A stretch of DNA of 64,000 bases from an uncultured Bacteroidota bacterium (GTDB lineage: Bacteria; Bacteroidota; Bacteroidia; 2-12-FULL-35-15): assembly GCA_903847205.1 (NCBI GenBank), contig CAINDA010000044.1, positions 186,001-250,000 on the forward strand. The letters are read 5' to 3'. The notes under the pieces are model-generated. The model saw only the letters and a list, made by a program, of their open reading frames with translations, searched no databases and was not told where the DNA came from. Made by a program: the position numbers and the translations under genes. Positions 39,766-62,200 of this stretch are shown piece after piece; within the stretch, counting starts at the first letter, position 1, and each line of letters begins with the position of its first letter.

Positions 39766-41145
39766 TTAATTTTTCATTTTCACGTAAAACAAAGGCTTGT
39801 CATTACCTGTTTCCTCCCCGGCTTCATCAATTACTTTTATCAGTAAATCTATTCGAGTAACTTTTTTCGCTAACGAGAATTTTTGTTTATCAAAAATCCA
39901 TTTTTCATTCATTCTGACTTTTGAAATATCATTTTTAGTTATCAATTTAGGAGTATCCCCCAGTCTTACTAAAGAACTTTTTACTTTTTCAACTGACATT
40001 GGCACATTCGTTAGGATATCGTAAGCCTGCACTTTACCGCTGATAACAGCGTCAACAACATTATTAAATATTTTTTGTTTATCTACATTTTTATTAAGCG
40101 AATTCCAATATTCATCATCATAATCTACAGGCTGAATAAAAGCTGTTGATGATTGAATTTGTTCTGCCCAAAGTTCTCCCTTTGAAGTATCGGCAGTAAC
40201 AGTATTTTTTTTAGTAAAAACATAACCTAATAAAAATTCAGTTGAAGAGCCGGTATATGTTTTTATATTACTAATTCCGATATCATACGCATAGCCTAAA
40301 CATAAATTTTTGAACCTTACACCTCCGCTCACAGCAAGAGCATAGCTGCTGTGGTAGGTAAACCCTATCCAGCCTATTTTTTTCCAATCAAGAACAGTAT
40401 TAAAATCGTATTGAAGCGGGGCACCGCTCACGCTGCGCACATAAACCAAGGGAAATAATGTTATGCCCTTGTCTTTTACAACATCAACTACATACTTTAT
40501 AGATCCTTGGTAATGGCGAGCTAAATCAAAAAGACGAGGGTCGCCGTTAATGGAACTGTAATTCATTTTGTTTGCAAGTATCTGAGGTACAGAAAAACCT
40601 ATTTCTAATTTTTTTATTGAATATAATAAACCGAAATCAGTATTAAAAACGGCTTTGCTCTGTTGTTGCTGCAATAAATAAGGGTCATCTTTATCACGCA
40701 TAATCGCTTTTGCATAATCAATTTTGTTATCAAGAATCCCCATAGCCAGACCAAAAACCACTTTTTGGTCCTCGCTGATTTTTATTCTATAAGAATAAGT
40801 TAAAGCTGCACCGGTCTGACTGATAATATCAGTTGAATAGGTATAAAATTTCATTCCCAATCCTATATTTTTATCTTCAACAGGTCCGTCTATCGTTAAA
40901 AAGCTTGTCTGTGGCGCGCCTTTTATACTGGTCCATTGAGACCTGTGAGTCAAATATGCACTCGTTCTTTGATTATTTCCGGTATATGCCGGATTCAGCA
41001 CAAGAGGATCGGAATAATACTGGCTGCTGAAAGGAACCTGCTGTGCAACAATCCATGAATCTTTCCTTAACAAAGGAGAGAAAAAGAGCAGGACAGAAAT
41101 TATGACTGCCCCCTTGATTTGTAGATGTTTTGTTTTCATTTTCAT
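39766..41145 (-). CDS. PorP/SprF-family T9SS outer-membrane protein with a C-terminal GldN/PorN-like extension
   Basis: 459 aa. Signal peptide to about residue 34 (ending WIVAQQ). Residues 36-313 are a PorP/SprF barrel: QVPFSSQYYSDPLVLNPAYT, GNNQRTSAYLTHRSQW, IGLGMKFYTYSTDIISQTGA, LCLGYAYDIGISNIKTYTG, STEFLLGYVF. Normal members end soon after this. Here about 145 residues follow, and 345-459 (nt 39766-40113) resemble GldN/PorN of the T9SS ring: NNVVDAVISGKVQAYDIL, then RMNEKWIFDKQKFSLAKKV and DKPLFYVKM, compare the family's EDWFFDKQ...PLFW pattern. PorP/SprF proteins help display type B T9SS cargo, and this gene lies 65 bp after the giant CHU_C gene, as sprF follows sprB. The barrel call is firm; the GldN-like call rests on motif memory. 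Confidence 0.85.
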   Translation of the reverse strand: MKMKTKHLQIKGAVIISVLLFFSPLLRKDSWIVAQQVPFSSQYYSDPLVLNPAYTGNNQRTSAYLTHRSQWTSIKGAPQTSFLTIDGPVEDKNIGLGMKFYTYSTDIISQTGAALTYSYRIKISEDQKVVFGLAMGILDNKIDYAKAIMRDKDDPYLLQQQQSKAVFNTDFGLLYSIKKLEIGFSVPQILANKMNYSSINGDPRLFDLARHYQGSIKYVVDVVKDKGITLFPLVYVRSVSGAPLQYDFNTVLDWKKIGWIGFTYHSSYALAVSGGVRFKNLCLGYAYDIGISNIKTYTGSSTEFLLGYVFTKKNTVTADTSKGELWAEQIQSSTAFIQPVDYDDEYWNSLNKNVDKQKIFNNVVDAVISGKVQAYDILTNVPMSVEKVKSSLVRLGDTPKLITKNDISKVRMNEKWIFDKQKFSLAKKVTRIDLLIKVIDEAGEETGNDKPLFYVKMKN

Positions 41146-41210: not shown

Positions 41211-44200
41211 TTATTTTTCATGGAAAATCGTGATTCCGCCTGTATAGAACTTAGTTGAATTTTCAAACTTGAGGAAATAATAGTATGTACCATCTGGTAA
41301 AGGCTTACCGCTCATATTTGAACCATCCCAAGTATTTTGATAATTCGTTGATATATAAACCTGCTGACCTTCAACATTAACAACTGTTACCTGAGTATTT
41401 GGATAATTTTCAATATTTAAAATAATCCAAGTATCATTGTTTCCATCACCATTAGGCGTCATCACGTTAGAAATTACAACTTTGTAATCCACATCAATCG
41501 TAACAATTACTGTATCTGAACTCACACAGCTATTGGCATCCGTTACTGTAAGGAAATAAGTTGTAGTTTCCGTTGGTGTTGCAGTTGGGTCAGCAATAGA
41601 AGGATAATCAAGTCCTGCAATAACTGCAGAAGTAGAAGAAGTCCAAAGGTAGTTACCTCCTCCCGATCCATTGAGTACTACAGAACTGCCTAAAGCAATG
41701 GTTGTATCTCTGCCAGCATTTGCAATAGGGAGAGGAAAAACAACAACAGAAACAGAGTCGGAATTACTGCATGAACTGGAATTTGTTACATGAACCGAGT
41801 ATGTACCGCCCGAATTTACTACAATCCTTGAAGCAGTTGAACCATTACTCCACAAATAACTCAAACCTGCCCCAGTCGCAACACTCAGTGTATCCTTTCC
41901 GCCAAAACAGAATTTCATGGATCCGGTGGAAGAAATGTGCGGATCAGGTAAAGCATTTACTGTATAATTCTGAGTTAAAGTACTTATACAGCCTTGATCT
42001 GAAGTAACTGTAAGTTTCACGCTGTAAGTTCCTGCATTATTATAAGTAATAAGAACGGGCTGGCTGGTAGTGGTGGAAGTGTAGGTTGTATCACCAAAAT
42101 TCCAGTTATTTTGAACTATTGTTCCGCTGCTTACGGTTGATCCATTTGTAAATACCGATGTTTGTCCAAAGCAGACAGCAGGAGCCGTAAAGGCTGCAAT
42201 TGGATTTGGATTAACAGTAATAACCGCAATTAAGGATGTATCTGCTGAACAAACACCACTTTTCACCCATGCTCTGTACCATGTAGTAATTGTAAGATTG
42301 TTATAAGTGAAGGTTGGTGTTGGAGTTCCTGTGCTGGTCCATGTTAATCCGTTATTTGTAGAAGACAGCCAGCCTTGTATTACACCCGTATAACCATTCA
42401 AATTCAGTGTTCCATTATTCAAACCGCTGCATACTGAAGCATTACTTGTAACAGTACCGCCGACTGAAACAGGATCCACAGTAATTGTTACAGAGGATGA
42501 GTTTACCTCTTGGCATACCCCTCTTTGAACCACCGCATGGTAAACTGTTGTCACAGGAACGTTGCTGTAAGTCTGTGTTAAAGATGTATTAGTAATATTA
42601 TTCCATGTATTGCTGCCGTCTGTCGAATATTCCCATCTTACAACACTGCCAGTTTGGCCGCTCAGGGTAAGCACCCCTCCATTTGAACCGCTGCAAACAG
42701 TTGCATTGCTTGTTATTGTACCGCCCACAGAAGGAGGATCTACAACAACTGCAACATCAAATGTCAGCGGGTTTGAACAGACACCAGCTGAAATTGTGTA
42801 AGTGTATGTAACACTCACTGCCCCTGCTGTAGTATTCGTAAGCACTTCGTTAGGCGAGTTTGTCCCAACGCCTGCTGCATTGCTGATACCAGCTACGGCA
42901 GCTCTTGTCCAGGAAAATAGCGCACCTGTTGTCGAACTTGTCGGCGTATAATTGAAAACAGAACCGCTGCAGATTAGCGGAGCAGATGGATTGCTGCTTA
43001 AAACTGGCTCTGGATTCACAGTTACAACTACATTATAATTAACAGGACTAGAGCATCCATTTGCAATTAATTTATACATGTAAGTGACATGAAGCGGGGA
43101 TGCTGTTGTGTTAGTTAGTATCTCATTAATAGTGAAATTGCCGCCAGCCGCAGGATTACTTATTCCAATTACTGCTGCCCTGGACCAAGAGAATGACACA
43201 CCTGTTGTTGCACTTGTTGGTGTATAATTGAAAGCCGTACCGCTGCATATTGCAGGAGGATTTAATGTACTGCTTAATGTCGGAAGAGGATTAACAGTAA
43301 CCACTACACTGAAGGTAGAAGCATTAGTACAGCTGTTGCCGCTTACTGTATAAATGTAGGTAACATTTACCGGATTTGCAGTTGTGTCGGTAAGTATTTC
43401 GCTCGGATCACCTGTACCTGTTCTTGATAAGTTACCAATACCTAGAACCGCAGCCCTTGTCCAGGCGAACGATGCTCCAGGAGTTGTGCTCGCGGGCGTA
43501 TAATAGAATGTGCTTCCGCTGCATATAGCCGCAGGAACCAGCGAACTCGTCAATTTTGGAGTTGGGTTAACTCTTACAACAACACTATATGTCAATGGAT
43601 TTATACAGCTGCTTGCTGTTACACTATAAACATAAGTAACATTTACAGCAATTGAAGTTGTATCTGTTAAAATCTCACCTGGATCGCCCGAACCGCTAGA
43701 TGCGGTATTACTGATGCCCGCAATAGCTGCTCTTGTCCAGTTAAATACAGCTCCTGCAGTAGCACTAGTTGATGTGTAATGGAAAGCTGTACCGCTGCAA
43801 ATAGCGGATGGAGTTAAGGTACTAGACAAATTCGGAGTTGGATTTACAGCAACGACAACATCCTCGTTATACTGGCAGTTGTTAGCGGCAATTCTATAAG
43901 TGTAGGTAACAAAATTAGGATAAGACGCAAGGTTAGTAAGCACTTCGCTTGGGTCGCCTGCACCGCTGCCGGCCGGATTGCTGATACCCGCAACAGCAGG
44001 CCTTGTCCACGTAAACACAGAACCTGCAGTTGCGCTTGTCGGTGTATAACTGAAAGTTGTACCGCTGCAAATAGCAGGAGGCGTCAAACTGCTGCTTAAT
44101 GTCGGCGTTGGATTAACAGTGGCAACAACACTGAAAGGAAGAGCATTTGTACAGCCTGCAACAGATACAGTGTAAACATAAGTGGTATTTTTCGGAACGG

Positions 44201-47200
44201 CAGTTGTATTTGTAAGTGTCTCGCTTGGGTTGCCGATACCTGAACCTGCTAAATTACTGATGCCTGCAACTGCAGCCCTTGTCCATGTAAATGTACCGCC
44301 AGGCGTAGCGCTTGTCGGTATATAAATAAAATCTGTACCGCTGCATATTGCAGGAGGAGCTAAACTGCTGCTTAATGCAGGTGTAGGGCTTACCGTAACA
44401 ACTACACTAAATGTTGATGGATTTGTACAGCCGTTTGCAGTTACTGTATAAACATAAGTAACATTTACCGAACCAGCCGTAGTATTGGTGAGGGTTTCAT
44501 TTGGATTGCCATTGCCCGCTGCCGGTGCATTACTTATACCGGTAACTGTTGCTCTTGTCCAATCAAATGATCCGCCTGCTGTAGCGCTGGTTGGTGTGTA
44601 ACTGAAAACCGTACCGCTGCATATAGCCGGAGGAGTTAAAGTACTGCTTAAAGTAGGAGCAGGAGCAACAATAACTGCAACATTATATGTTACAGGATTT
44701 GTACAGCTGTTAGCAGTAGCTGAATACACGTAATTAACGCTAATTGGACCTGCAGTTGTGTTTGTAAGCAATTCATTCGGATTACCTGACCCGAATGACG
44801 CTCCCTGAGCAATACCGATCACTGAACTTCTTGTCCAGCCAAATGATGAGCTTGCCACTGGGCCTGCAGGAGAGTAATTAAAGAACGAACCACTGCAAAT
44901 TGCAGGCGGAAGTAATGTAGTGCTTAATGTAGCAGTTGGATTAACAACAACTACTACATCAAAAGTGTTTGGATTTGTACAGCTGTTAGCAGAAACAGAA
45001 TATGTATATGTAACATTAATAGGCGCAATCGTTGTATTTGTAAGCGGTTCATTCGGGTTGCCTGTTCCGTTTGCAGCTACCTGGCTGATACCCACAACTG
45101 CGGCTCTTGTCCAGGTAAATGAAGCTCCTGGAGAAGTACTTGTTGGAATATAACTGAAAGTAGAGGCGCTGCATATCGCAGGAGGAGCAAGAGTACTGCT
45201 TAATGAATGATTACAGATACAAGCTTTGTTCACTCTGATAACAACATCGTAAGTGGTTCCATTAGTACAAAGGCCGGTGGATAAGGTAAAAATGTAATGA
45301 ACATTTTCAGGATGTGATGTATCCGAAAGAGTAAGTGTTTCGTTCGGAACTCCAGCACCAGCTGTTCCTGACTGAACTATCCATGGGTCAGTAGCTCTGG
45401 TCCAATTAAATGTTACACCTGACATTGCGCTTGTTGGAATATAATTGAAAGTTGTACCGCTGCAAAGCGCAGGAGGAGTCAAGGAACTTGTTAATGCAGG
45501 GGAAGGATTTACAGTAACCACCACATTGTAAGGAGTTGAATTTGTACAGCCGTTCGCAGATAAAGTATAAACATAGGTAACCGTTACAGCACTTGTTGTT
45601 GTATTGTTAAGTACTTCGTTCGGGTTGCCATTACCATTTCCAGAAACATTACTGATACCCACCACAGCTGCTCTTGTCCATGCAAAAATGGTACCTGGCG
45701 TCGGGCTTGTAGGAACATAATTGAAAGTATGAGGCGCTCCGCTGCAAAATGCCGGTGGTGTAAAGCTGCTGCTTAAAGTTGGTATTGGATACACTGTTAC
45801 AACTACATTATAAGTTGAAGCATTTGTACAGCTGTTTGCAGCCAAAGTATACACATAAGTAACATTTACAGGCGTTGCTATAGTATTATTAAGCACCTCA
45901 TTTGGATTGTTTATTCCGCTTGCTGCAGAATTACTGATTCCTATTACGCTGGCTCTTGTCCATGAGAATGATGTGCCTGCTGTTGCACTTGTAGGTACAT
46001 AACTGAAAGATGTACCGCTGCATAATGGTGCTGGAGTCACTGTACTGCTCAATAAAGGGGTTGGGTTGACTGTTACAACAACGTTGTATGTTGATGCATT
46101 TGTACATCCATTGGCAGAAACTGTATAAACATAAATGACATTTATCGGAGAGGCCGTTGTATTAATAAGAAGTTCATTTGGATTGTTGATACCTCCGCCG
46201 GCTATATTACTTATACCTGCTATTAGTGCCCTTGTCCAAGCAAACGCTGCACCCGCTGTAGAGCTGGTTGGAGTATAACTGAAAACGGCACCGCTGCAAA
46301 TAGCCGAAGGGGTCAGGATACTTGTTAAAATAGGTGTTGGGTTTACAGCAACAACAACAGGATAGGTGGTAATATTTGTACAGCCATTTGCTGCAAGTGT
46401 ATAAATGTAAGTTACATTTATTGGAGCAGCGGTTGTGTTATTTAATACTTCGTTTGGATTATCAGTGCCTGTTGCTCCTATATTGCTTATACCAACCACA
46501 GCAGCCCGAGACCAAGCAAATGTTGCACCTGGTGTACCACTTGTCGGAGTGTAAGCAAAAGTTGTTCCGCTGCATATTCCCGGAGGTGTTAGACTGCTGC
46601 TGAACCCTGGTGTTGGATTTACAATAACAGCTACCGTATATGTTGTTGGATTTGTACATCCGTTAGCTACAACTGAATAAATATAATTTACAGTTACGGG
46701 CGGTAATATAGTATTATTAAGTATTTCATTTGGATTTCCTGTACCGGTTCCAGCTAAATTACTTATACCAGGAACAGCTGCTCTCGTCCAAGGAAATGTT
46801 GATCCTGCAGTCGGACTCGTCGGCAGATAGAAGAATGCTGTTCCGCTGCAAATTGCTGGCGGAGCTAATGTACTGCTGAGTGTTGGTGTAGGATTAACAA
46901 CCACAACAACATTAAATACAGAAGTACATCCGTTTGCTGAAACAGTATAAATATAAGTAACATTTACCTGAGAAGTAGTAGTATTGATAAGTACTTCTGA
47001 AACACTTCCAACTCCGCTTCCTGCTGAATTGCTGATACCAGACACAGATGCCCTGGTCCATGCAAATGAAGCACCGGATGTAGGACTAATAGGAGCATAA
47101 TTGAAAGGAGAACCGCTGCATACTGGAGGCGGTGTTAAGCTGCTGCTCAATGCCGGCGTTGGATTCACGATAACAATTACATTAGATGTTGACGCATTTG

Positions 47201-50200
47201 TGCAGCTATTTGCAGTTAATGTATAAACATAAGTAACATTTATCGGCGCCGCTGTTATGTTAGTAAGGGCTTCCAGCGGATTACCGGTTCCTGTGCCGGC
47301 AATATTACTAATACCAGCTATTGCAGCTCTCGTCCATGCAAATGAAGTACCTGCTGTTAAACTAGTTGGCAAGTAACTGAATGTGGTACCGCTGCATATT
47401 GCTGGAGGCGCTAAACCACTTGTCAATAAAGGAACAGGATACACCGTAACAACAACACTTGAAGTTGAAGGATTTGTGCAGCTGTTGGCAGTTATTGTAT
47501 AAATGTAAGTAACATTCACCGGCGCTGTTGATGTGTTGGTCAGCGTTTCATTTGGATTGCCTGCTCCACCGCCTGCTATGTTACTGATTCCAATGACAGC
47601 AGCTCTAGTCCACGCGAACGTCGCACCTATAGTTGAACTTGCAGGAGGATAATTGAAAGAGGTTCCACTGCATATTGCTGAAGGAGTAAGCGTGCTGGTT
47701 AATGCCGGAGTTGGATTTACAGCAACAACTACACCGTATGTCGCAGCATTTGTACAGCCGTTTGATGATACAGTATAATCATAAGTAACGTTTATCGGAG
47801 CTGGTGTTGTATTGGTCAGCACTTCGTTCGGATTAGCAGTACCGCTTGCAAGAATATTGCTGATACCTGGTACTACAGCTCTTGTCCATGAGAAAACAGT
47901 ACTTCCTATTGTGCTTGTTGGTGTGTAACTGAAAGCTGAACCGCTACAGATTGCAGGAGGCGACAAACTGCTTGTTAATGCTGGGGTAAGATTTACTGTA
48001 ACAACTACTTGATAAGTGGATGGATTAGTACATCCATTCGCTGCAACAGTATAAACATAAGTTACATTAATTGGAGCAAGTGTTGTATTATTAAGTACTT
48101 CGTTTGGATTACCGGAACCGCTTCCTGCAATATTGCTGATACCCGCAACTGTTGCTCTAGTCCATGTTAACACCGCACCTAAAGTTGAACTAGTAGGTGA
48201 ATAGCTGAATGCTGAACCGCTGCATATTGCAGGAGGGGCAAGACTGCTTGTTAATAATGGTGTCGGATTCACCGTTACAAGTACATTAAATGTTGCGGGA
48301 TTGGTGCAAGTATTGGCAGAAACTGTATAAACGTAAGTAACAGTTATAGGCGCAGTAGTCGTATTAATAAGTGTTTCGTTAGGATTGGCAGAACCGCTTC
48401 CGGCAAGATTGCTTATTCCAGCAACCACAGCTCTTGTATAAGTAAACACAGCACCAGCTGTTGCACTTAGAGGAGTGTAATTGAATGCAGTATTATTACA
48501 GATTGCAGGAGGCGAAAGAGTACTGCTTAATGCAGGTGTAGGATTTACTAAAACAACTACTGGATATGTTGTCGCACTATTACAGCCGTTGGCAGAAACC
48601 GAATAAATATAAGTTACACTTATAGGAGCAGATGTTGTATTTATAAGTGTTTCGCTTGGATTCCCAGCGCCGGATCCGCCAATATTGCTTATACCAGGAA
48701 CAGCAGCTCGTGTCCATGCAAATGCTGCACCCGGAGTAGGACTTGTAGGTGAATAATTAAAAACACCATTACTGCAAATTGCCGGAGGAGATAAACTGCT
48801 GTTTAAGGTTGGTGTTTGATTTACAGAAACTACTACGTTATACGTTGAAGCATTCACACATCCATTTGCTGTTACCGTATATACATAAGTAACATTCACT
48901 GGAAGAGAAGTGGTATTGTTTAGTACTTCGTTTGGATTTCCAGGTCCGCTGCCAGCTAAATTACTGATACCTGCAACTACAGCTCGTGTCCATCCAAAAG
49001 TTGCTCCAATTGTTGCACTTGCCGGGGTATAACTGAATGCTGTTCCGCTGCAGATTGCCGGGGGTGCTAAAGTACTTGTTAATCCAGGAGTCGGGTTGAC
49101 AACAACAACAACATTGTAAGGAATTGCGTTTGCACATGAATTAGCCGTAAGAGAGTAAACGTAAGTAACACTTATTGGGTCAGTTGTTGTATTGGTAAGT
49201 ATTTCAGACGGATTTCCAGTACCTCCGCTGCCGATATTGGTGATTCCTGCAACTGCAGCTCTGGTCCAAGAAAAAACTGTGCCTCCTGTGCCGCTTGAAG
49301 GTGTATAATTGAATGCCGTTCCGCTGCAGATTGCCGGAGGAAGAAGACTGCTTGTTAATAATGGTTTCGGGAATACAGTAACTATAACATTATAGTTGCT
49401 CACATTAGTACAGCCATTTGCAGCTACAACATATACGTAAGTAACATTCACAGAAGATGCCACTGTGTTAACCAGAACTTCATTAGGATCTCCTGTACCG
49501 CTTCCGGCAGTATTACTAATGCCTAGAATCGCAGCTCTGCTCCAAGTCAATGTAGCGCCAAGTGTTGCACTAGTAGGAGTATAATTGAATGTACTTCCGC
49601 TGCATATTGCGGGCGGAGTCAAGCTGCTGCTTAAGGTTGGTGTTGTATTTATGGAAAGAATTACATTATAGGTTAACGGGTTTATACAGCCATTTGCTGC
49701 AACAGTATAAACATACGTAACATTAACTGCAGATGTTGTAGTATTTATAAGCGTTTCATTCGGATTGCCAGAACCGCTTCCCACTCCATTACTAATACCA
49801 GCTACAACGCCCCTTGTCCATGTCATAGTTGCACCAGAAGTTGGGCTGGTAGGTGTATAATTGAAAGGTGAGCCACTGCAAACTGCAGACGGCGACAAAG
49901 TGCTGCTTAATGTCGGTGTTGGATTTACGACCAGACTGACATTTTGATTATTACTGCAGCCATTTGAAGTGGTAGAGAAAATGTATGTAACATTTACCGG
50001 AGCTGCAGTTGTATTAATAAGTGTTTCATTCGGGTTATTTGTACCGCTTGCAGCGATATTAGTTATACCGGCCACTGCGGCGCGAGACCAGGCAAATAAT
50101 GCTCCTGCTGTTGCACTTGTCGGCGCATAGCTGAATACTGTGTTGCTGCATACTGCAGGAGGAGACAAGCTGCTGCTTAAAGTAGGCGAGAATTTCACAG

Positions 50201-53200
50201 TTAACACAACGTTTGATACTGCAGGGTTTGTACAGCCGTTTGCTGTCACTGAATAAACGTAAGTAACATTTATATCAGCAGCAGTTGTATTGATAAGTGT
50301 TTCATTCGGATTGCCCGCTCCGCTGCCGGCAATGTTGCTGATTCCAGCAACCGCTGCTCTTGACCATGCAAATGTCGCACCGCCGGTTGTACTTGTCGGC
50401 GCATAGCTGAAAAGAGTTCCGCTGCAAATCGAAGGAGGAGCTAAACTGCTGGAGAATACAGGGTTTGGATTTACAGAAACAACAACACTCTGTCCAGGTG
50501 AATTACTGCAGCTATTTGCTGTAGTGATATATGTATAGGTCACATTTACAGTTGCGGTTGTTGTATTGGTAAGAACTTCATTCGGATTGTTTGTACCGCT
50601 GCCGGCTAAATTGCTTACCCCCGCAACAGACGCTCTAGTCCATGCAAAAGCAGAACCAATTGTTGCGCTGGTAGGCGAATAAGAGAATGCAGTACCGCTG
50701 CAGATTGAAGGCGGAGCTAAACTGCTATTCAGCACCGGGGTTGGATTAACTGTAACCACAACACTATAAGGTGTCCCATTAGTACAGCCATTTGCAGATA
50801 AGGTAAATACATAAGTTACATTTATCGGTGCTATGGTTGTATTAGTTAGTGATTCTGAAACATTAGCTACACCGCTTCCGCCAGGGTTGCTAATACCTAC
50901 AACTGCCGCTCTGACCCATGTGTATGAAACACCTGCTGTCGCACTTGTCGGATTGTAGTTAAATGTTGTTCCGCTGCAAATAGCTGGAGGAGTTAAACTG
51001 CTTGTTAATAAAGGTGTAGGAAGCACTGTTACTACTACATTGAAGAATGCAGGGTTTGAACAGCCATTTGCAGACACTGTATATTGATAAGTAACATTTA
51101 CAGGCGAAGCTGTTGTATTAGTGAGCGTTTCATTTGGGTTGCCAGAACCGCTGCCAGCAATACTATTGATACCTACCACAGCCGCTCTGGTCCAGGCGAA
51201 TGCAGCACCTACTGTTGCACTTGTTGGTGCATAACTGAAAGGAGTTCCACTGCAGAATGAAGGCGGTGTTAAACTGCTGCTTAACACAGGTGTTGGTTTT
51301 ACAGATACCGTTACATTTTGGATATTGCTGCAGCCGTTTGCGGTTACCGAATAAGCATAAACAACATTAAGCGGATTAACTGTAGTATTAGTTAACACTT
51401 CATTGGGGTCGTTAGTACCGCTGCCGGCCCCGTTGCTGATGCCAACAACTGTCGCCCTTGTCCAAGGGAATGTAGCGCCGATAGTTGCACTTGTCGGTGA
51501 ATAATTAAAAGTAGTACCGCTGCAAATTGCCAAAGGAGTCAAGGTGCTTGTTAATATCGGATTTGGATTTACTCTGACAACTACATTGTAAGTTGTTGGG
51601 TTTGTACAGCCATTAAAAGATATTGTATAAACATAAACAACATTTATAGGAGCAGTAGTTGTATTATCAAGTGTCTCATTTGGATTATTGAAACCGCTGG
51701 CACTAATCTCACTGATGCCAACAACTCCCGCTCTAGACCATGCGAAAGCTGCACCCCCTGTAGGACTGGTTGGAGAATAACTAAAAGCCGTGCCGCTGCA
51801 AATTGCAGGCGGCGTTAAACTGCTGCTTAAAGCAGGAGCAAGATTAACAGGTACAACCACATTGTACGTTGCCGGATTAACACAGCCGTTTGCAGTAACA
51901 GTATAAACATAAGTAACATTTATGTTGCTCGTGGTTGTATTTACAAGAGTTTCATTAGGATTAGCAGAACCACTGCCTCCAATATTACTAATACCAACAA
52001 CAGTTGCCCTTGTCCAGGTGAATGAAGCTCCTGAGGTTGCACTGGTAGGGGCATAACTGAATACAGAACCGCTGCAAACTGCCGGAGGAGTAAGGCTGCT
52101 GTTTAATAAAGGATTTGGATTTACTGCAACTACCACATTTTGACCAGGAGAATTGCTGCAGCTATTTGCTGTAGAGATATAAACATAAGTAACATTTATA
52201 ATTGCTGTAGTCGTATTAGTAAGGGTTTCATTTGGATTATCAGTTCCGCTGGCGGCAATATTGCTGATACCTGCAACAGCAGCCCTGGTCCAGGCAAATG
52301 TAGTGCCTGGAGTTGCACTGGTAGGAGAATATGCGAATACAGTTGTATTACAAATTGCTGCAGGGGTTAATGTACTCGTTAATATCGGTGTTGGTTTAAC
52401 TGTAACAACCACATTATAAGTTGTTGGGTTTATACAGCCGTTAGAGGTTAAAGTATATACATACGTAACATTCACAGGAGAAACGGTGGTGTTAATAAGC
52501 GTTTCATTCGGGTTACCGTTACCTGTTCCGGCAGCATTACTGATACCAGCAACAGCTCCTCTTGTCCACGCAAATGTTACACCTGCTGTTGCACTTGTCG
52601 GCGAATAAGAGAATGCCGTACTGCTGCAAATTGAAGGAGGAGCAATACTGCTTGTTAATGTCGGGGTTGGATAAACTGTTACTGTAACATCATACGTTAC
52701 AGGATTAATACATGTGTTTGCTGTTACGGTATAAATATAGTCAACATTTAAATTTGCAGCTGTAGTATTAATTAGTATTTCATTCGGATTTCCTCCTCCG
52801 CTTCCTGCTGTATTGCTTATCCCAATTACCGTGGCCCTTGTCCATGCAAATGTTGCACCGGCAGTTGCACTGGTTGGTGCATAACTAAAAGTAGTGTTGC
52901 TGCAAATTGCAGGAGGTGTAAGAGTACTGTTTAATACAGGTATTGGATTTACCGTTAAAATTACATTTTGATTAATTGTACAGGCATTTGCTGAGGTTGT
53001 ATAAACATAAGTAACATTAACTGCTGCAGTTGTAGTATTCGTAAGCTGCTCGCTTGGGTCATTTGTACCGCTTGCGGCAATATTACTAATGCCAGTTGTG
53101 GTGGCTCTAGACCAAGCAAAGGTAGTACCCAAAACAGCACTCGTCGGCGTATAGTGGAATATAGTACCGCTGCATATTGCCGGAGGCGCTAAACTGCTGC

Positions 53201-56200
53201 TTAAGGCAGGTGTCGGATTTACTCTTACAACAACATTATAAAGAGTTGCATTTGTACAGCCGTTAGCTGACACAGTATAAACATAAGTAACGTTTATATT
53301 GGATGCAGTTGTATTAATCAGAATTTCATTCGGGTTATCTGAACCGCTGCCTGCAACATTACTGATACCGGCTACCGCAGCCCTTGCCCATGTGAATGAA
53401 GTACCAGGTGTTGCACTTGTAGGAGTGTAACTAAAAGAAGCACCGCTGCAAATGGCAGGAGGAGCCAATGTACTTGTTAAAGTAGGGATGATATTAACTG
53501 CAACTACAACGTTGTACAAAGTTGGGTTTGTGCAGCCGTTGGCTGCTACTTGATAAACATAAGTAACATTTATTGGAGATGTTGTTGTGTTAGTAAGCAC
53601 TTCATTTGGGTTACCGGTGCTTGAAGCAGCTGCATTGCTTATTCCAACAATCAGTGCTCTGGACCATGTGAATGATGAACCAACAGTTGCGCTGGTCGGC
53701 AGATAGCTGAACGCCGAGCCGCTGCAGATTGCAGGAGGAGTCAAGCTGCTGTTTAATGTCGGCGTTGGATTTACTAAAACAACAACATTCTCTCCGGGAG
53801 CGTCACTACAGCTATTAGCAGTGGTAGTATAAGTGTAAGTGACATTTAAAGGATTTGCTGTTGTATTAGTAAGTGTTTCATTTGCAGTTCCAACACCGGA
53901 TGCCGCCGAATTGCTGATACCTCCAACAGCTGCTCTTGACCACCCGTATGTGGCTCCCGCCGTAGCACTTGATGGGGTATAACTAAAAGGATTACCGCTG
54001 CAGATTGCTGAAGGCGTTAATGTTCCGCTCAATCTTGGAGTTGGATTTACAACAACTGTTACATTGTAAGTAGATCCGTTTACACATCCGTTTGCTGTTA
54101 CTCCATAAACATAGGTAACAGTAACCGGCGAAGCGGTTACATTAGTAAGTGATTCAAACACATTTCCAACACCGCTAGCCGCTGTATTGCTGATACCTGC
54201 AACTGCTGCCCTGGCCCATGTAAATGTCGCACCAGGAGTAGCGCTTGCTGCCGTGTAGCTGAAAGTTGCACCGCTGCATATTGCTGGCGGCGCAATACTG
54301 CTGCTCAATGTCGGCACTGGATTAACTACCACAACTACATTATAAGCCGACAGGTTTGAACATCCATTTGCTGCCAATGTATAAACATAAGTAACATTTA
54401 TAGGTGATGTTGTTGTATTGTTAAGTATTTCATTGGGGTTATTTGTACCGCTGTTTCCAGGATTACTGATACCAATTATAGCTGCTCTTGCCCAGTTAAA
54501 TGTTGCACCAGCAGTAGAACTTGTCGGCGCATAAGTGAAAGTGTTACCGCTGCAAATGCCAGGCGGCGTTAAACTGCTGCTAAGTGTCGGTTTTGGAAGC
54601 ACATTTACCACAACAGGGAAAGTAACAGGATTTGTGCAATCCCCAAGCATTGTAACCTGGTAAATATAAGTAACAGCAACTGTTGTGGCACCTGTGTTAT
54701 TCAGTACTTCATTAGGATTGCCGTTACCGCTTCCTCCTGTATTACCGATACCTGGTACCACAGCTCTTGTCCAATCAAATGAATTACCTCCGTTAGTACT
54801 TGCAGGAGTGTAACTGAAGGCCGTTCCGCTGCACATATCAGGCGGTGTTAATGTACTGCTTAATGTATGATTACATGCACAGGTAGTTACAACAACAACT
54901 ACACTGAAAGTTGTTGGATTGGTACAGCCGTTGGCTGTTAAAGTATAGATGTACGTAACATTAACATCACCTATTGCCGTTTTGGTAAGCGTTTCATTTG
55001 GATTATTGGAACCAAAACTGGCGGGATTAGAAATACCAGGTACGGTTGCTCTTGTCCAAGAAAATGTAGTGCCTGCAGTTAAACTTGTTGGTGTATAGCT
55101 GAAAGGAGATCCTCCGCAAATTGAGGGGGGAGTAACAGAACTGCTTAATGCCGGAGAAGGTTTTACGGAAACTGCGACATCATAGGTTGCACCGCCGGGA
55201 CAGCCAAACGCTGCTACCGAATAAATGTAATGAACAGTTATCGGATTTGCCGTTGTATTTATTAGTATTTCCTGTGGATCGTCAACCCCGAAACTTGCAG
55301 TATTGGTTATACCTGCTACTGTAGCTCTTGTCCAAGTAAATGACACACCTGCCGTAGCGCTTGTTGGTGAGTAATAGAAAATAGTACCCGTGCAGGTTGC
55401 AGGAGGTGTTAATGAACTGGTTAATGTAGGCACCAAATTTACTGCAACAATTACTGTATCATGCCTTGAACAGCCACTGGCAGTTGTTGTATAAATGTAA
55501 CTAACATTTATAGGGTTAGATGTTGTATTGTTAAGAATTTCATTCGGATTGTCAGTACCGCTGGCAGCAGGATTACTAATACCAGCAACAGCAGCTCTTG
55601 TCCATGCAAATGTTGCTAAGGCAGTACCGCTTTGAGGTACATAATAGAAAGCTGATCCGCTGCAGATTGGAGGCGGTCTTAAACTGCTGCTGAAAACAGG
55701 GGTAGGATTGACGGTCACATATATGTCTTGACGGAATAAGCAATTCCCAATATTTGAATAGTCCCAAAACTGATAAGTAACAACAATAGGGAAAGTAGCT
55801 AAGTTGGTAATTACCTCGCTCACATTACCGACACCGCTGCTTGCTGGCTGCAAAATACCGGATACAGCAGGGCGATACCAATTGTAGGTGCTTGGAACAT
55901 TACTTGTTGGGTGGTATGTAAAAGTACCACCGCTGCAAAATGCCGGATTAAAAATAGGACTGGTTAAAAGAGTCCTCGGCAGTAAAGAAACAACTACAGT
56001 GTCTTTATGAGAATTTACACAGCCGTTAACTGCTGTGGTAAAAATATAGGAAACATTAATTGCTGCATTAGTTACATTATCAAGTCCTTCATAAACATTA
56101 CTGTTACCGCTGCCTGCTCCATTTGATACACCAGCAACAACTGCTCTGGTCCAGGTAAAGTTTGCACCGGGTGTGGCACTTGTTGGTACGTATTGAAAAA

Positions 56201-59200
56201 TATAGCCCTGCTGATCGTATGAACAGGTGTTTCCAGCATTTAATGGGCTGTTCAATTTTGCGACTGGGTAAATTGTTTCAACCACATTGTCAAAATTTGT
56301 ACACCCGCTTGCAGTAAGAGAATAAGAATAAGTAACATTGATTGGAATTGCAGCCGTGTTGATAAGTGCTTCAGCTGGATCACCTAGACCGGTTGCTGCA
56401 GCATTACTGATGCCAGGTACGGAAGCTCTAATCCATGAGAAGGTAACACCAGCAGTTACGCTGGTAGGTGTATAATGGAATACAACCCCGCTGCAAATTG
56501 GATTCGGCGTTGTAGGGCTGCTTAATACCGGCCTTGGGTAAACAGTAACAACCACAGGAAAATGAGTTGGGTTTGTACAGCCATTGGCAGTTACTACATA
56601 ATCATAAGTAGTGGTTGCAGGAGCTGTTGTTGTATTAACAAGCGTTTCGAAAGGATTATCAGTACCGCTTGATGCTGAATTTATTATCCCTGCAGCTATA
56701 CCTCTGGTCCATGTAAATGACGCACCGGGAGTTGCACTTGCCGGCTGGTAACTAAAAGACGAACCGCTGCACACGGTCGGTGTAGGACTGCTGCTTAAAG
56801 TAGGTGTCGGATATACTGTAACAATTACATTTTGATTAAAACTGCAGCCATTTGCAGTTATCGTATAAATATAAGGAACATTGATAAGAGCCGTGGTTGT
56901 ATTATTGAGTGCTTCTCCAGGACTGTTTGTACCGCTGTTTGCTGCATTGCTTATTCCAGGCTGTACTTCCCTTATCCAGGAAAATGTGGCACCGGTTGTT
57001 GCACTTGCAGGAGTATAGTTAAAAACAATACCGCTGCAAATAGGAGGAGGAGTAACAGAACTGCTTAATACAGGTTTTGGATATACGGTTACAACAACTA
57101 AAAAATGTGCCGGGTTAGTACAGCCATTTGCTGCGGCCTGATAATCGTAAGTTACAGTTACATCACCGGTGGTAGTATTAATAAGCGTTTCAAAAGGGGT
57201 TCCGGTGCCAGCGCCGGCAGAGTTGCTGATACCTGCAACCACAGCTCTGGTCCATGTAAATGTTGCCCCTGGTGTTGCACTGCTTGGTGAATAATTGAAT
57301 GGAGACCCGCTGCACACAGTTGGTGTTAAACTGCTGTTCAAGGTCGGTGACGGATAAACAGTTACAATTACGTTTTCATTATTACTGCAGCCATTAGCAG
57401 TTGTAGTATAAACATAAGTGACATTTATCGGGCTGGGTGAGGTATTTATTAATGTTTCACCAGGATTGCCTGTACCGGTGGCCGCTGCATTGCTAATGCC
57501 CGGTATTGTTGCTCTGGACCAGGCAAATGTAGCGCCGGTGACGGCACTTGAAGCAGCATAATTAAATACTATACCGCTGCAAATAGCAGGCGGTGTTGTA
57601 GAACTGCTTAATGTTGGTTTCGGAAAAACTGTTACTACAACATTTTCAGGTACCGGGTTAGTACAGCCATTTGCTGCTATGGTAAATACATAAGTAACAT
57701 TAATGGATGAAGAAGTTGTATTGTCCAGAATTTCAAATAGAATTCCAGCACCGCTTCCTGCACTATTGCTAATTCCGGCAACCACCGCTCTTGTCCATGT
57801 AAATGTAGCACCTGGAGTAGCACTCGTTGGCGAATAATTAGATGGTACTCCGCTGCAAGATGAAGGGGTAAGATTACTGTTAAGCGTAGGAACAGGATAA
57901 ACAGTTACAAATACATTTTGGCTGAAACTGCAGCCATTTGCAGTGATTGTGTAAACGTAAGTAACATTAATCGGAGTAGTTGATGTATTAATAAGTGATT
58001 CACCCGGACTGTTAGTACCGCTGTTGGAAAGATTGCTTATACCTGGGACAGCAGACCGCTGCCAAGCAAAGGCAGCACCTGCAACAGAACTTGAAGGAGC
58101 ATAATTAAAAGCGACCCCGCTGCAAATTGCAGGCGGAGTAGTACTGCTGCTTAAACTTGGCACGGGGTATACTGTTACCACAACGTTTATTGGAGTAGGA
58201 TTGGTACAGCCGTTTGCGGAAGTTGTGAAAGCATAAGTGGCATTAACAGCAACGGATGTTGTATTATTAAGAACTTCAAATGGCACTCCAAAACCGCTTG
58301 ATGCTCCGTTGCTGATTCCGGCAGTTACCGCTCTTGTCCATGTAAAGGTAGCACCTACTGTTGCACTTGTAGGATTGTAGTTGAAAGATGAACCGCTGCA
58401 GACAGTCGGCGTAAGACTGCTGTTAAGAAAGGGAACCGGATACACTTGAACAGTAACATTTTCTGAATTACTGCATCCATTAGCAGTTGTAGAAAATACG
58501 TAAACAACATTAACAGTCTGCGGGGAAGTATTGACAAGAATTTCTGCGGGATCACCAGTACCTACAGCAGCTACATTGCTGATTCCGGCAACTGCCGCCC
58601 TTGACCATGGGAAGGTTGCACCAGAAGTTGCACTTGAAGGAGTATAATGAAAAGTTGCTCCGCTGCAAATTGCACCCGGGAACAAACCACTGGATAATGT
58701 AGGAAGAGGATTTACAACAACGTTTACTGTAGCTGTAGAAGCGCTTACGCATCCATTGGCAGTTACAGTATAGATATAGGCAACACTTACTGGAGAAGTA
58801 GTTGTATTATTAAGTACTTCGAAAGGATTTGCCAAGCCAGCTCCTGCCCCATTACTTATACCAACAACAACCGCTCTTGTCCAAGAAAATACAGCACCGG
58901 CGGTTGCACTTGTAGGTGAATAATTGAAAGCTGTTCCGCTGCAGGCTGCAGGCGGTGCTAATGAACTGCTCAATGTTGGAGTTGCGTTAACTTTTACCGT
59001 AACATCCTGATTAAAGCTGCAACCGTTTGCAGTAATAGTATAAGTATAAATAACATTTACAAATGAAGTAGTAGTATTGGTAAGTATTTCATTAGGACTG
59101 TTTGTACCGGTATTAGCCGCCTGGCTTATACCTGGAACAACGGCTCTTGACCATGCAAACGCCGCACCTCCTGTTGAGCTTGTCGGTGAATAACTAAATG

Positions 59201-62200
59201 AAGCACCGCTGCAAATATCCGGAGGAGTTAAAGAAGAACTTAAAAGCGCAATTGGATTAACAGAAACTATAACAGCATAAGTTGAAGCGCTGGTACAACC
59301 ATTTGCATGAACAGTGAATAAATAGGTGACGCTTTTAGCGGTAAGCGTATTATTGTATAAAATTTCATTCGGGTTTCCATTACCGCTTCCCGCTGCGTTG
59401 GTTATCCCTGCAACGACCGCTCTTGTCCAGGTAAATGTGGCACCAATCTGCGGGCTTGAAGGTGTATAGTTAAAGGCCGAATTACTGCACATTGCAGGCG
59501 GAGTAAGCGAACTGTTTAAGGTAGGCAGCGGTGCTATAATTATTGTACCAACTGCAGTGGTCTGAACGCAGGTTCCTGTTGTAGTTATAGTATATGTATA
59601 ATTACCAACCACCACTGAAGAATCCTTTATTGTAAATGTACTTCCGCTGAAACCACCAGTGATACCTGCAGGAAGTCCGGAAACAATTGCACCCGTTCCG
59701 CCTCCGCTTACATTATAAGTGATAGGAATAATAGGAGTATTAAGGCAGACTGTCTGAGCATTGGTACCAGCAGCAGATGTTAATGCGATGGCTGCATCCG
59801 GACTGATTGCCACAGCAAAATTTGGAGAAGCTGTTCCACTGCCGCAACTATTGTTTCCAACAACGGTAAGATTTCCAGCAGTTGCTGTATTTGAATACGC
59901 TACTGAAATACTTGATGAAGTACCAATAATTGTTCCTCCAGTGCCTGAATAACTCCAGGTATAGCTTGTTGCGTTTCCGATACCCGGTACTGAATAGCCA
60001 TACGTTTGTGCATGGCATATTGGGCTTGTTCCACTGATAGTGCCTGCAGCAGCCGGTGATTTTTGAATAGATACAACTACATTCTGGCCGAGGGTTGCTG
60101 AATTATTACAGCCAGTTGAAGGATCTGTTGTTATAAAATTATAGGTAACATTTATATTATTACCGCTGGCATTGGTTAATGTTTCATTAATAATATTTGT
60201 AGCCCCGGAATTAGTGAGAGGAGAAATGTCTGTAACTAAAGGCCTTGTCCATGTAAATGTAGCGCCCGGAAATGAACTAGCTGCTGCAGCGTAAGAAAAA
60301 GGACTTCCGCTGCAAACAGCTGCCGGAGTTAAAGTACTGCTGATTGATGGGCTGGGATTTACAACAACGGTTGCTGTTGTTGGTGTACCGCCTGCGCAGG
60401 AAGGCGTTATAGTAAAAATAACAGTTTGGGGAGAAGTAGTTGTATTGGTCATAATCCCCGAAATATTTCCGGAACCGCTTGACAAACCGGTTACGTTACT
60501 GTTGCTTCTGGTCCAAGTAAAAGTTGTACCCGGAACACTAGGGCTGGTACCTAAAACAATTGTGGAACCAAGGGCTACTCCTGAACATACAGTCTGCACT
60601 GGCGTACCTCCGGAAACTACAACAGCAGTAGCAGGCACATTAACTGCAACAACTACATTCTCACCAGTATTAGAGCAGGAATTTGCAGTAGTTGTGAAAA
60701 CATAAGTAACATTAATTGGAGAGCCGGATGTATTGGTTAATACTTCGCTTACGTTACCAGCAATTGGTCCTACACCTGGCTGAGTGATATTAGCAACAGT
60801 AGCTCGTGTCCAGCTGAATGATGCCCCGCCTGTTGCACTTGTTGGGTTATAATTAAAAGTAGTACCGTTACAGAGGTAAAAAGTTCCCAAACCGCTGCTT
60901 AACATTGGCGTTGGATTTACTGTTACTGACACTGGCTGACCAGTTCCAACACAATTACCTACAGTTGAAGTAGGGGTAACTGTATAGCTCACCACCTGAA
61001 TAGAAGTTGCAGTACTAGTAATTGTATTGTTTAAGGGATTTGCCGACTGAGGTGTAAGACTCTCACCGGTAGTGTTTAAATTGTCGGCAGCAATCCATGA
61101 ATAGGAAGCAGAAATATCACTTGTTAAGGGAATGCTGACTGGTGCTCCGCTGCAAATTGTTGCAGCATTTGAACTGGTCATAGTAGGATGCGGATTTACC
61201 GTAACGTTTACCGTTTGGGAGGATCCTGCCACACAATTAGTCGGCGTAACAGTATAAACAACAACCTGAGCAGAAGTTGTATTGTTTGTTATTGTATTAT
61301 TTAAAGGGCTCGTTGACTGCGTAGTCAAACTTTCGCCGGTTGTGTTTACGTTGTCAGCAGCAATCCATGTAAATGTAGAACCGGCTATACTGCTTGTAAG
61401 AGGAATATTAACTGTTCCTCCGGTACATATTGTTGCAGAACTTGCACTGGTCATTACTGGTGCTGCTACAGTAACTGTAACAGCATTACTTATAACAGCC
61501 GGTGAGCAGGTACCGAAAACCACAACATCTATACTGGCTCCATTTTCACCTATTGCAGGACTTGTAATAGTTAAAGTAGAACCTGTAACACCGCTGTAAG
61601 GTGCAGAATTGGTGAGATTTACCCCGCCTTTTCTCCACTGATAGGTTAATCCAGGGCCTGTTGCAGTAACACTTATAGTATGTGTTCCGGCACCGGGACA
61701 GAATATTGCGGGTGCAACAGGCTGAACAGTAATAGCCGGCAATGCATTTACAGTAAGTGAGACAACACTGCTGGTTACAGAAGGTGCACAGCCGCTTACA
61801 ACTACATCAATATTGGCGGCATTTTCGCCGATTGCAGGACTTGTTATAGTTAAAGTGGCAGTAGTAACACCGCTGTATGGAGCAGTATTGGTAAGATTTA
61901 CTCCGCCTTTTCTCCATTGATAGGTAAGAGCACCGCCAGTTGCAGTTACACTGATTGTGCCTGTTCCTGAACCCGCACAAAAAGCTGCAGGAGCTGCAGG
62001 CTGCACAGTAATTGCAGGCAGTGCGTTTACAGTAAGAGTAACAGCACTGCTTGTAACAGCCGGGGTACAGGTACCGCTTACAACACAAGTTATGCTGGCT
62101 CCATTTTCAGTATTTCCGGGACTTGTAATTGTTAAAGTAGAGGTGGTAACGCCGCTGTAAGTAGCATCGTTAGAAAGACTCACGCCGCCTTTTTTCCATT

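Follow-up and report, generated by a model that had tools for sequence, protein, structure and literature searches.

A PorP/SprF-type outer-membrane barrel extended by a truncated GldN-like domain, encoded beside a giant gene with a type B sorting domain

The window analyzed is a 64,000-nucleotide stretch of contig CAINDA010000044.1 from an uncultured Bacteroidota bacterium. On its reverse strand, an open reading frame (39766..41145, −) starts with ATG, has no internal stop and encodes a protein of 459 amino acids, in which the ORF and Pfam analyses delimit a PorP/SprF barrel, a linker and a truncated GldN-like domain. Residues 1-36 (41038..41145, −), hydrophobic and then AQQ, look by eye like a signal peptide and have low pLDDT in the full-length model. 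The outer-membrane beta-barrel spans about residues 37-312 (40210..41037, −). Pfam PorP_SprF (PF11751) matches residues 33-308 with an E value of 1.8e-65 (221.7 bits against a cut-off of 22.3) and the NCBIfam PorP-family model TIGR03519 gives 218.2 bits (cut-off 90.55), placing the protein above the curated cut-offs of the PorP/SprF family. A short linker, KNTVTADTSKG (residues 313-323; 40177..40209, −), disordered in the model, leads to the GldN-like domain (residues 324-459; 39769..40176, −), which was identified by PF19841, AlphaFold2, Foldseek and a profile alignment to PorN structure 7pvh, and corresponds to about PorN 40-195. Within this domain, GldN (PF19841) matches residues 353-458 over profile positions 29-147 of 228 (E 1.3e-9; 38.5 bits), above the gathering cut-off of 23 for the GldN domain superfamily. 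A preliminary description of this DNA had proposed a PorP/SprF barrel extended by a tail of GldN pattern. Both Pfam matches uphold this proposal, and the three motifs that it quoted are present: VDAVISGKVQAYDIL at residues 364-378, (N)EKWIFDKQ at 414-421 and KPLFYVKM at 450-457. A chance motif match was ruled out by both domains scoring above cut-off, and an assembly or frameshift artefact by the existence of seven intact fusion genes in five species. The PorP/SprF plus GldN-like architecture and its descent can be taken as nearly certain.

The relationship of the tail to GldN is remote at the sequence level. The GldN/PorN equivalog model TIGR03523 (NCBIfam), which describes the full-length protein, gives the tail 16-20 bits (cut-off 85.9), and phmmer found no significant match between the tail alone and PDB sequences. 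A profile built from the five closest tails alone likewise matched no PDB sequence; detecting the Porphyromonas gingivalis PorN sequence thus requires distant GldN-like sequences in the profile. These, among them three canonical GldN sequences of the clade, were added to a wider profile, which did detect it. An HMM built from the fused and standalone tails matches the canonical GldN proteins of the clade at about 1e-8 to 1e-12.

The AlphaFold2 model of the tail (31 aligned sequences, with the distant GldN-like ones, the three canonical GldN included, among them) had a mean pLDDT of 90.3 and a pTM of 0.81. Template-free shape comparison of this predicted model with the PDB (Foldseek) returned five PorN chains (9ots, 7pvh A, 7pvh B, 9mzu and 9myj) with E values of 2e-5 to 2e-4 and probability 1.00. 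No other match fell below 0.001, the sixth having an E value of about 1. The TM-scores (TMq 0.47-0.56) were moderate, as expected for a remote, truncated relative. Thus the tail model has the PorN fold, and the family link drawn in the preliminary description is borne out by Pfam and by structure. Testing the tail against GldN/PorN, as had been suggested, gave a PorN match through AlphaFold2 and Foldseek but not through TIGR03523, and the tail proved to be folded and PorN-like rather than a simple OmpA-like or disordered extension. In the full-length model a barrel is followed by a linker with pLDDT below 50 (residues 313-321) and then by the well-folded tail. The barrel is PorV/FadL-like: it matches PorV chains 8gl6_F and 6h3i_F (Foldseek), the former, its top match, being PorV within a substrate-bound type IX secretion system (T9SS) complex.

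Profile alignment to 7pvh, in which chain index and PorKN-paper numbering coincide (D43, W47 and P158-S161 fall on the letters given there), set the tail against PorN residues 40-195. In PorN, the loops D43-W47 and P158-S161 occupy pockets of PorK (PMC12421860). Both lie inside the region kept by the tail: the W47 position corresponds to W326, and 158-161 to the KQKF (residues 420-423) that ends the segment EKWIFDKQKF (residues 414-423; 39877..39906, −). PorN also has an N-terminal helix that fits a PorK groove, C-terminal helices (249-279) that hold it on PorK, a PorK crosslink at D220, a PorN-PorN contact at E235/N236 and a PorM crosslink at A241 (PMC12421860). The alignment shows that the tail lacks all of these, the motor contact at A241 included, and with region 9 (E235/N236) a portion of the PorN-PorN interface. 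In short, the tail shares with GldN/PorN (PF19841, TIGR03523; PDB 7pvh, 9ots, 9mzu, 9myj) the fold of the 40-195 core and both PorK-docking loops, but it is about half as long, lacks both sets of end helices and the motor-contact site, is joined to an outer-membrane barrel and falls below the equivalog cut-off. As judged from this alignment, it is a truncated GldN-like core, that is, an incomplete ring subunit. Since the docking loops are retained while the helices and the motor-contact site are missing, the tail could dock on GldK; ring building or a GldN-like motor contact would be unlikely. The idea of a ring-like module fused to a carrier thus stands as regards the fold, but not as regards the ring-locking helices and the motor contact, and docking of the tail to the ring or track appears plausible.

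Immediately upstream lies a single ORF encoding a giant protein of 7560 amino acids (41211..63893, −) with dozens of PKD_5/Ig-like repeats, identified by domain search and likely to be the cargo of the fusion protein. The C-terminus of the giant protein carries a T9SS type B sorting domain (CHU_C/TIGR04131; 41229..41474, −), with 79.3 bits to PF13585 and 53.9 bits to TIGR04131 (cut-off 35). All seven fusion genes (in the window, in L146 and in five other cases) directly follow a gene of the same orientation whose product has a type B sorting domain at its end, with TIGR04131 scores of 58-68 bits for the six outside the window. SPOR-tailed sister PorPs likewise have a type B gene upstream. Adjacency to CHU_C as a trait specific to the fusion was thus ruled out; the pairing belongs to the carrier family. 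The preliminary description had seen a dedicated device for the giant neighbour and asked whether other PorPs with this tail always follow CHU_C genes: the sorting domain and the seven of seven fusions agree with both ideas, but the SPOR-tailed PorPs share the adjacency.

The source genome encodes GldK, GldL, GldM, GldN and SprA, and a GldJ-like protein that scores just below cut-off (451 against 458). A PHROGs search gave no match. The genome also carries a second full GldN gene (contig C45, L169:9967-10824), outside the PorP-GldK-GldL-GldM-GldN operon of C28. Its short PorP paralogues L039, L040, L042 and L052 have cysteine-containing end tails (CPSF, CPKF, CPRL), possibly a counterpart of the cysteine tail of SprF.

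The seven fusion genes are found in 5 of the 36 species (genomes) of the genus, and there was none among the candidates scored, a limited number per genome, in 395 class and 396 phylum genomes outside it. Long-frame GldN matches in other genomes were rejected as PorP fusions, being tandem GldN-like or other proteins. In the closest fusion pair, dN/dS is about 0.04 for the tail (dN 0.043, dS 1.05) and about 0.03 for the barrel (dN 0.019, dS 0.57); in other pairs dS is near saturation. From these low ratios, the tail is maintained under strong purifying selection. Linker identity is 100% in this pair and 25-58% among most fusions. A neutral fusion, with a tail serving nothing except protein stabilisation, would suit a gene restricted to one genus, but a tail intact in seven copies and about as constrained as the barrel, in a family whose related PorPs carry folded tails too, makes this reading very improbable.

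Besides its two full GldN genes, the source genome encodes a standalone protein of 181 residues (L034:1294-1836) with 51% identity to the tail. Small GldN-like proteins of this kind (about 165-215 amino acids; mini-GldN below) are common in the genus and also occur elsewhere in the class. All 41 that were checked begin like lipoproteins, 39 of them matching a simple lipobox pattern and two judged by eye. The seven fused tails make up one clade (100/99) of the tail tree, nested within the mini-GldN lipoproteins and apart from canonical GldN. An origin in canonical GldN was thus ruled out. In the barrel tree, the fusions again form one clade (100/99), within long-tailed PorPs that mostly carry SPOR tails; the SPOR label has Pfam support in L065 (30.6 bits, cut-off 21), falls just below it in L059 (18) and elsewhere denotes a sequence motif only. 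Branching orders agree between the two trees save for one weakly placed pair. Since the fusions are monophyletic in both, a single fusion event followed by descent and duplication is likely, and several independent fusions were ruled out.

At the join, which directly follows the barrel, the lipoprotein has lost its signal and lipidated cysteine and retains its mature part; the barrel thus takes the place of the lipid anchor. The best-supported scenario from the trees is that an ancestral SPOR tail was exchanged for the mature part of a mini-GldN lipoprotein. The nearest barrel relatives, the SPOR-tailed PorPs of the genus (e.g. L065 and L059, the latter also adjoining a type B CTD gene), end in a peptidoglycan-binding SPOR domain whereas the fusion ends in a GldN-like one. 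The closest relatives of the tail, such as the 181-residue protein above, are separate proteins with their own lipobox and no barrel, unlike the barrel-joined tail. Mini-GldN genes do not lie in T9SS operons.

Members of the PorP family serve as dedicated carriers and retain type B proteins at the cell surface (PMC9143113, PMC12618676). In Flavobacterium johnsoniae SprF, carrier of the type B adhesin SprB, a CxC motif in the tail forms a disulfide with GldK, which belongs to the moving track (PMC12635249). The fusion resembles SprF in its PorP-family barrel, its predicted dedicated type B cargo and a periplasmic C-tail that would face the GldJ/K/N track, but SprF has a short tail with the CxC-GldK disulfide whereas the fusion has a folded GldN-like one in which, in seven of seven fusions, there is no cysteine. 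In P. gingivalis, PorE links PorP to peptidoglycan (PMC9143113). In this PorP-PorE-PG1035 system a PorP barrel with a periplasmic partner holds a type B protein at the surface, as the fusion is predicted to do; PorE, however, is a separate peptidoglycan-binding lipoprotein, whereas the periplasmic module of the fusion is in cis and GldN-like. In the SPOR-tailed relatives, the wall anchor would be part of the carrier itself, in cis.

We propose that the fusion protein is a dedicated type B carrier in which the SPOR tail was replaced by a GldN-like module coupling it to the GldK/N track. Taken as a whole, carrier role included, this statement seems to us evenly poised between right and wrong. 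The barrel, whose binding to the giant neighbour is predicted, would collect that protein through its type B sorting domain and hold it at the cell surface, a role that fits the sorting domain on the neighbour and on the genes preceding all seven fusions. The tail would dock non-covalently, through the two GldN loops, on outer-membrane-side GldK (or GldJ) of the T9SS/gliding track. The carrier would then be coupled to the moving track without a SprF-like cysteine link. Having neither the end helices of GldN nor its motor-contact site, the tail would ride on the track without building it or touching the motor.

Coupling of the tail to the GldK/J track is, on its own, a possibility that we rate somewhat below even. 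Several observations weigh against it. The N- and C-terminal helices that anchor PorN on PorK are missing, so the affinity of the tail may be low. Placement of the GldK contact depends on a remote alignment, the P. gingivalis PorN being divergent. PorN lies underneath PorK, farther from the membrane, and with a linker of only about 10 residues, reach to the native GldN site may be tight. Finally, mini-GldN neighbourhoods are not T9SS operons.

This last point also speaks for a different function, in which the GldN fold, unconnected with the GldK/N track, was reused as a generic anchor or binding module in the periplasm (for the wall, a lipoprotein or a PorE-like partner). Under this explanation, a tail descended from standalone lipoproteins with non-T9SS neighbours, and lacking the anchoring helices and motor-contact site of GldN (PMC12421860), took over from the SPOR domain, which is a wall-binding module. 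We regard it as unlikely though far from negligible, as both PorK-docking loops are retained, the fusion partner of the tail is a T9SS carrier, the genome encodes the complete GldK-N set and the carrier family elsewhere contacts GldK/PorK (PMC12635249, PMC9143113). Slightly less probable again is binding of the tail to GldN-like proteins (mini-GldN or GldN), which would cluster several carriers or cap the end of the track. Adjacent GldN-fold domains do pack against one another in the PorKN ring (PMC12421860), related bacteria have proteins with two to four GldN-like domains in tandem and the fusion genomes also carry standalone mini-GldN, but what the tail retains stops short of region 9 (E235/N236), which forms part of the PorN-PorN interface.

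Track coupling, by comparison, would be a second, non-covalent mode of adhesin-track coupling: a GldN-like clutch acquired by one domain swap from a SPOR-anchored carrier, in a barrel family with static and track-coupled members. We advance this wider view tentatively, as somewhat more doubtful than not. The SprF-GldK disulfide (PMC12635249, 2025) is the sole answered case of how a type B carrier connects a surface adhesin to the periplasmic machinery. In the fusion, nature has joined a carrier to the domain of a ring/track subunit, which links both parts genetically and makes a second coupling mode a testable hypothesis. The fused tail may let the secretion/motility machine grip its carrier directly, and the SPOR-tailed sisters offer a ready comparison of static and track-coupled anchoring. 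Searches of the open-access literature brought up neither a PorP-GldN fusion nor the small GldN-like lipoproteins; what is new relative to it is a GldN-fold-derived tail on a known carrier family.

Mini-GldN (L034:1294-1836 on contig C51, with about 40 relatives from further genomes) is a widespread family of lipoproteins with a truncated GldN fold, which suggests a use of this fold far outside the T9SS ring. The mini-GldN gene adjoins a large NTPase-like gene (PYPGLRPF...GREEHI) in several genomes of the genus, and TPR-like and Kelch-like genes are also among the neighbours there. Tandem GldN-like domains, two to four per protein, occur in other Bacteroidia (L200:2657-4660, L201:3315-5207, L203:3200-4213, L205:749-3704), some of these proteins having a lipoprotein-type N-terminus. 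Another GldN-domain fusion in the source genome (L033:577-1875, contig C65; 433 residues) joins an unassigned N-terminal part of about 300 residues to a C-terminal GldN domain (62.4 bits). Tail swapping in the PorP carrier family seems to be frequent. L045:679-2388, L085 and L086 are PorPs with a third tail type, a CarboxypepD_reg-like beta-sandwich that scores below cut-off.
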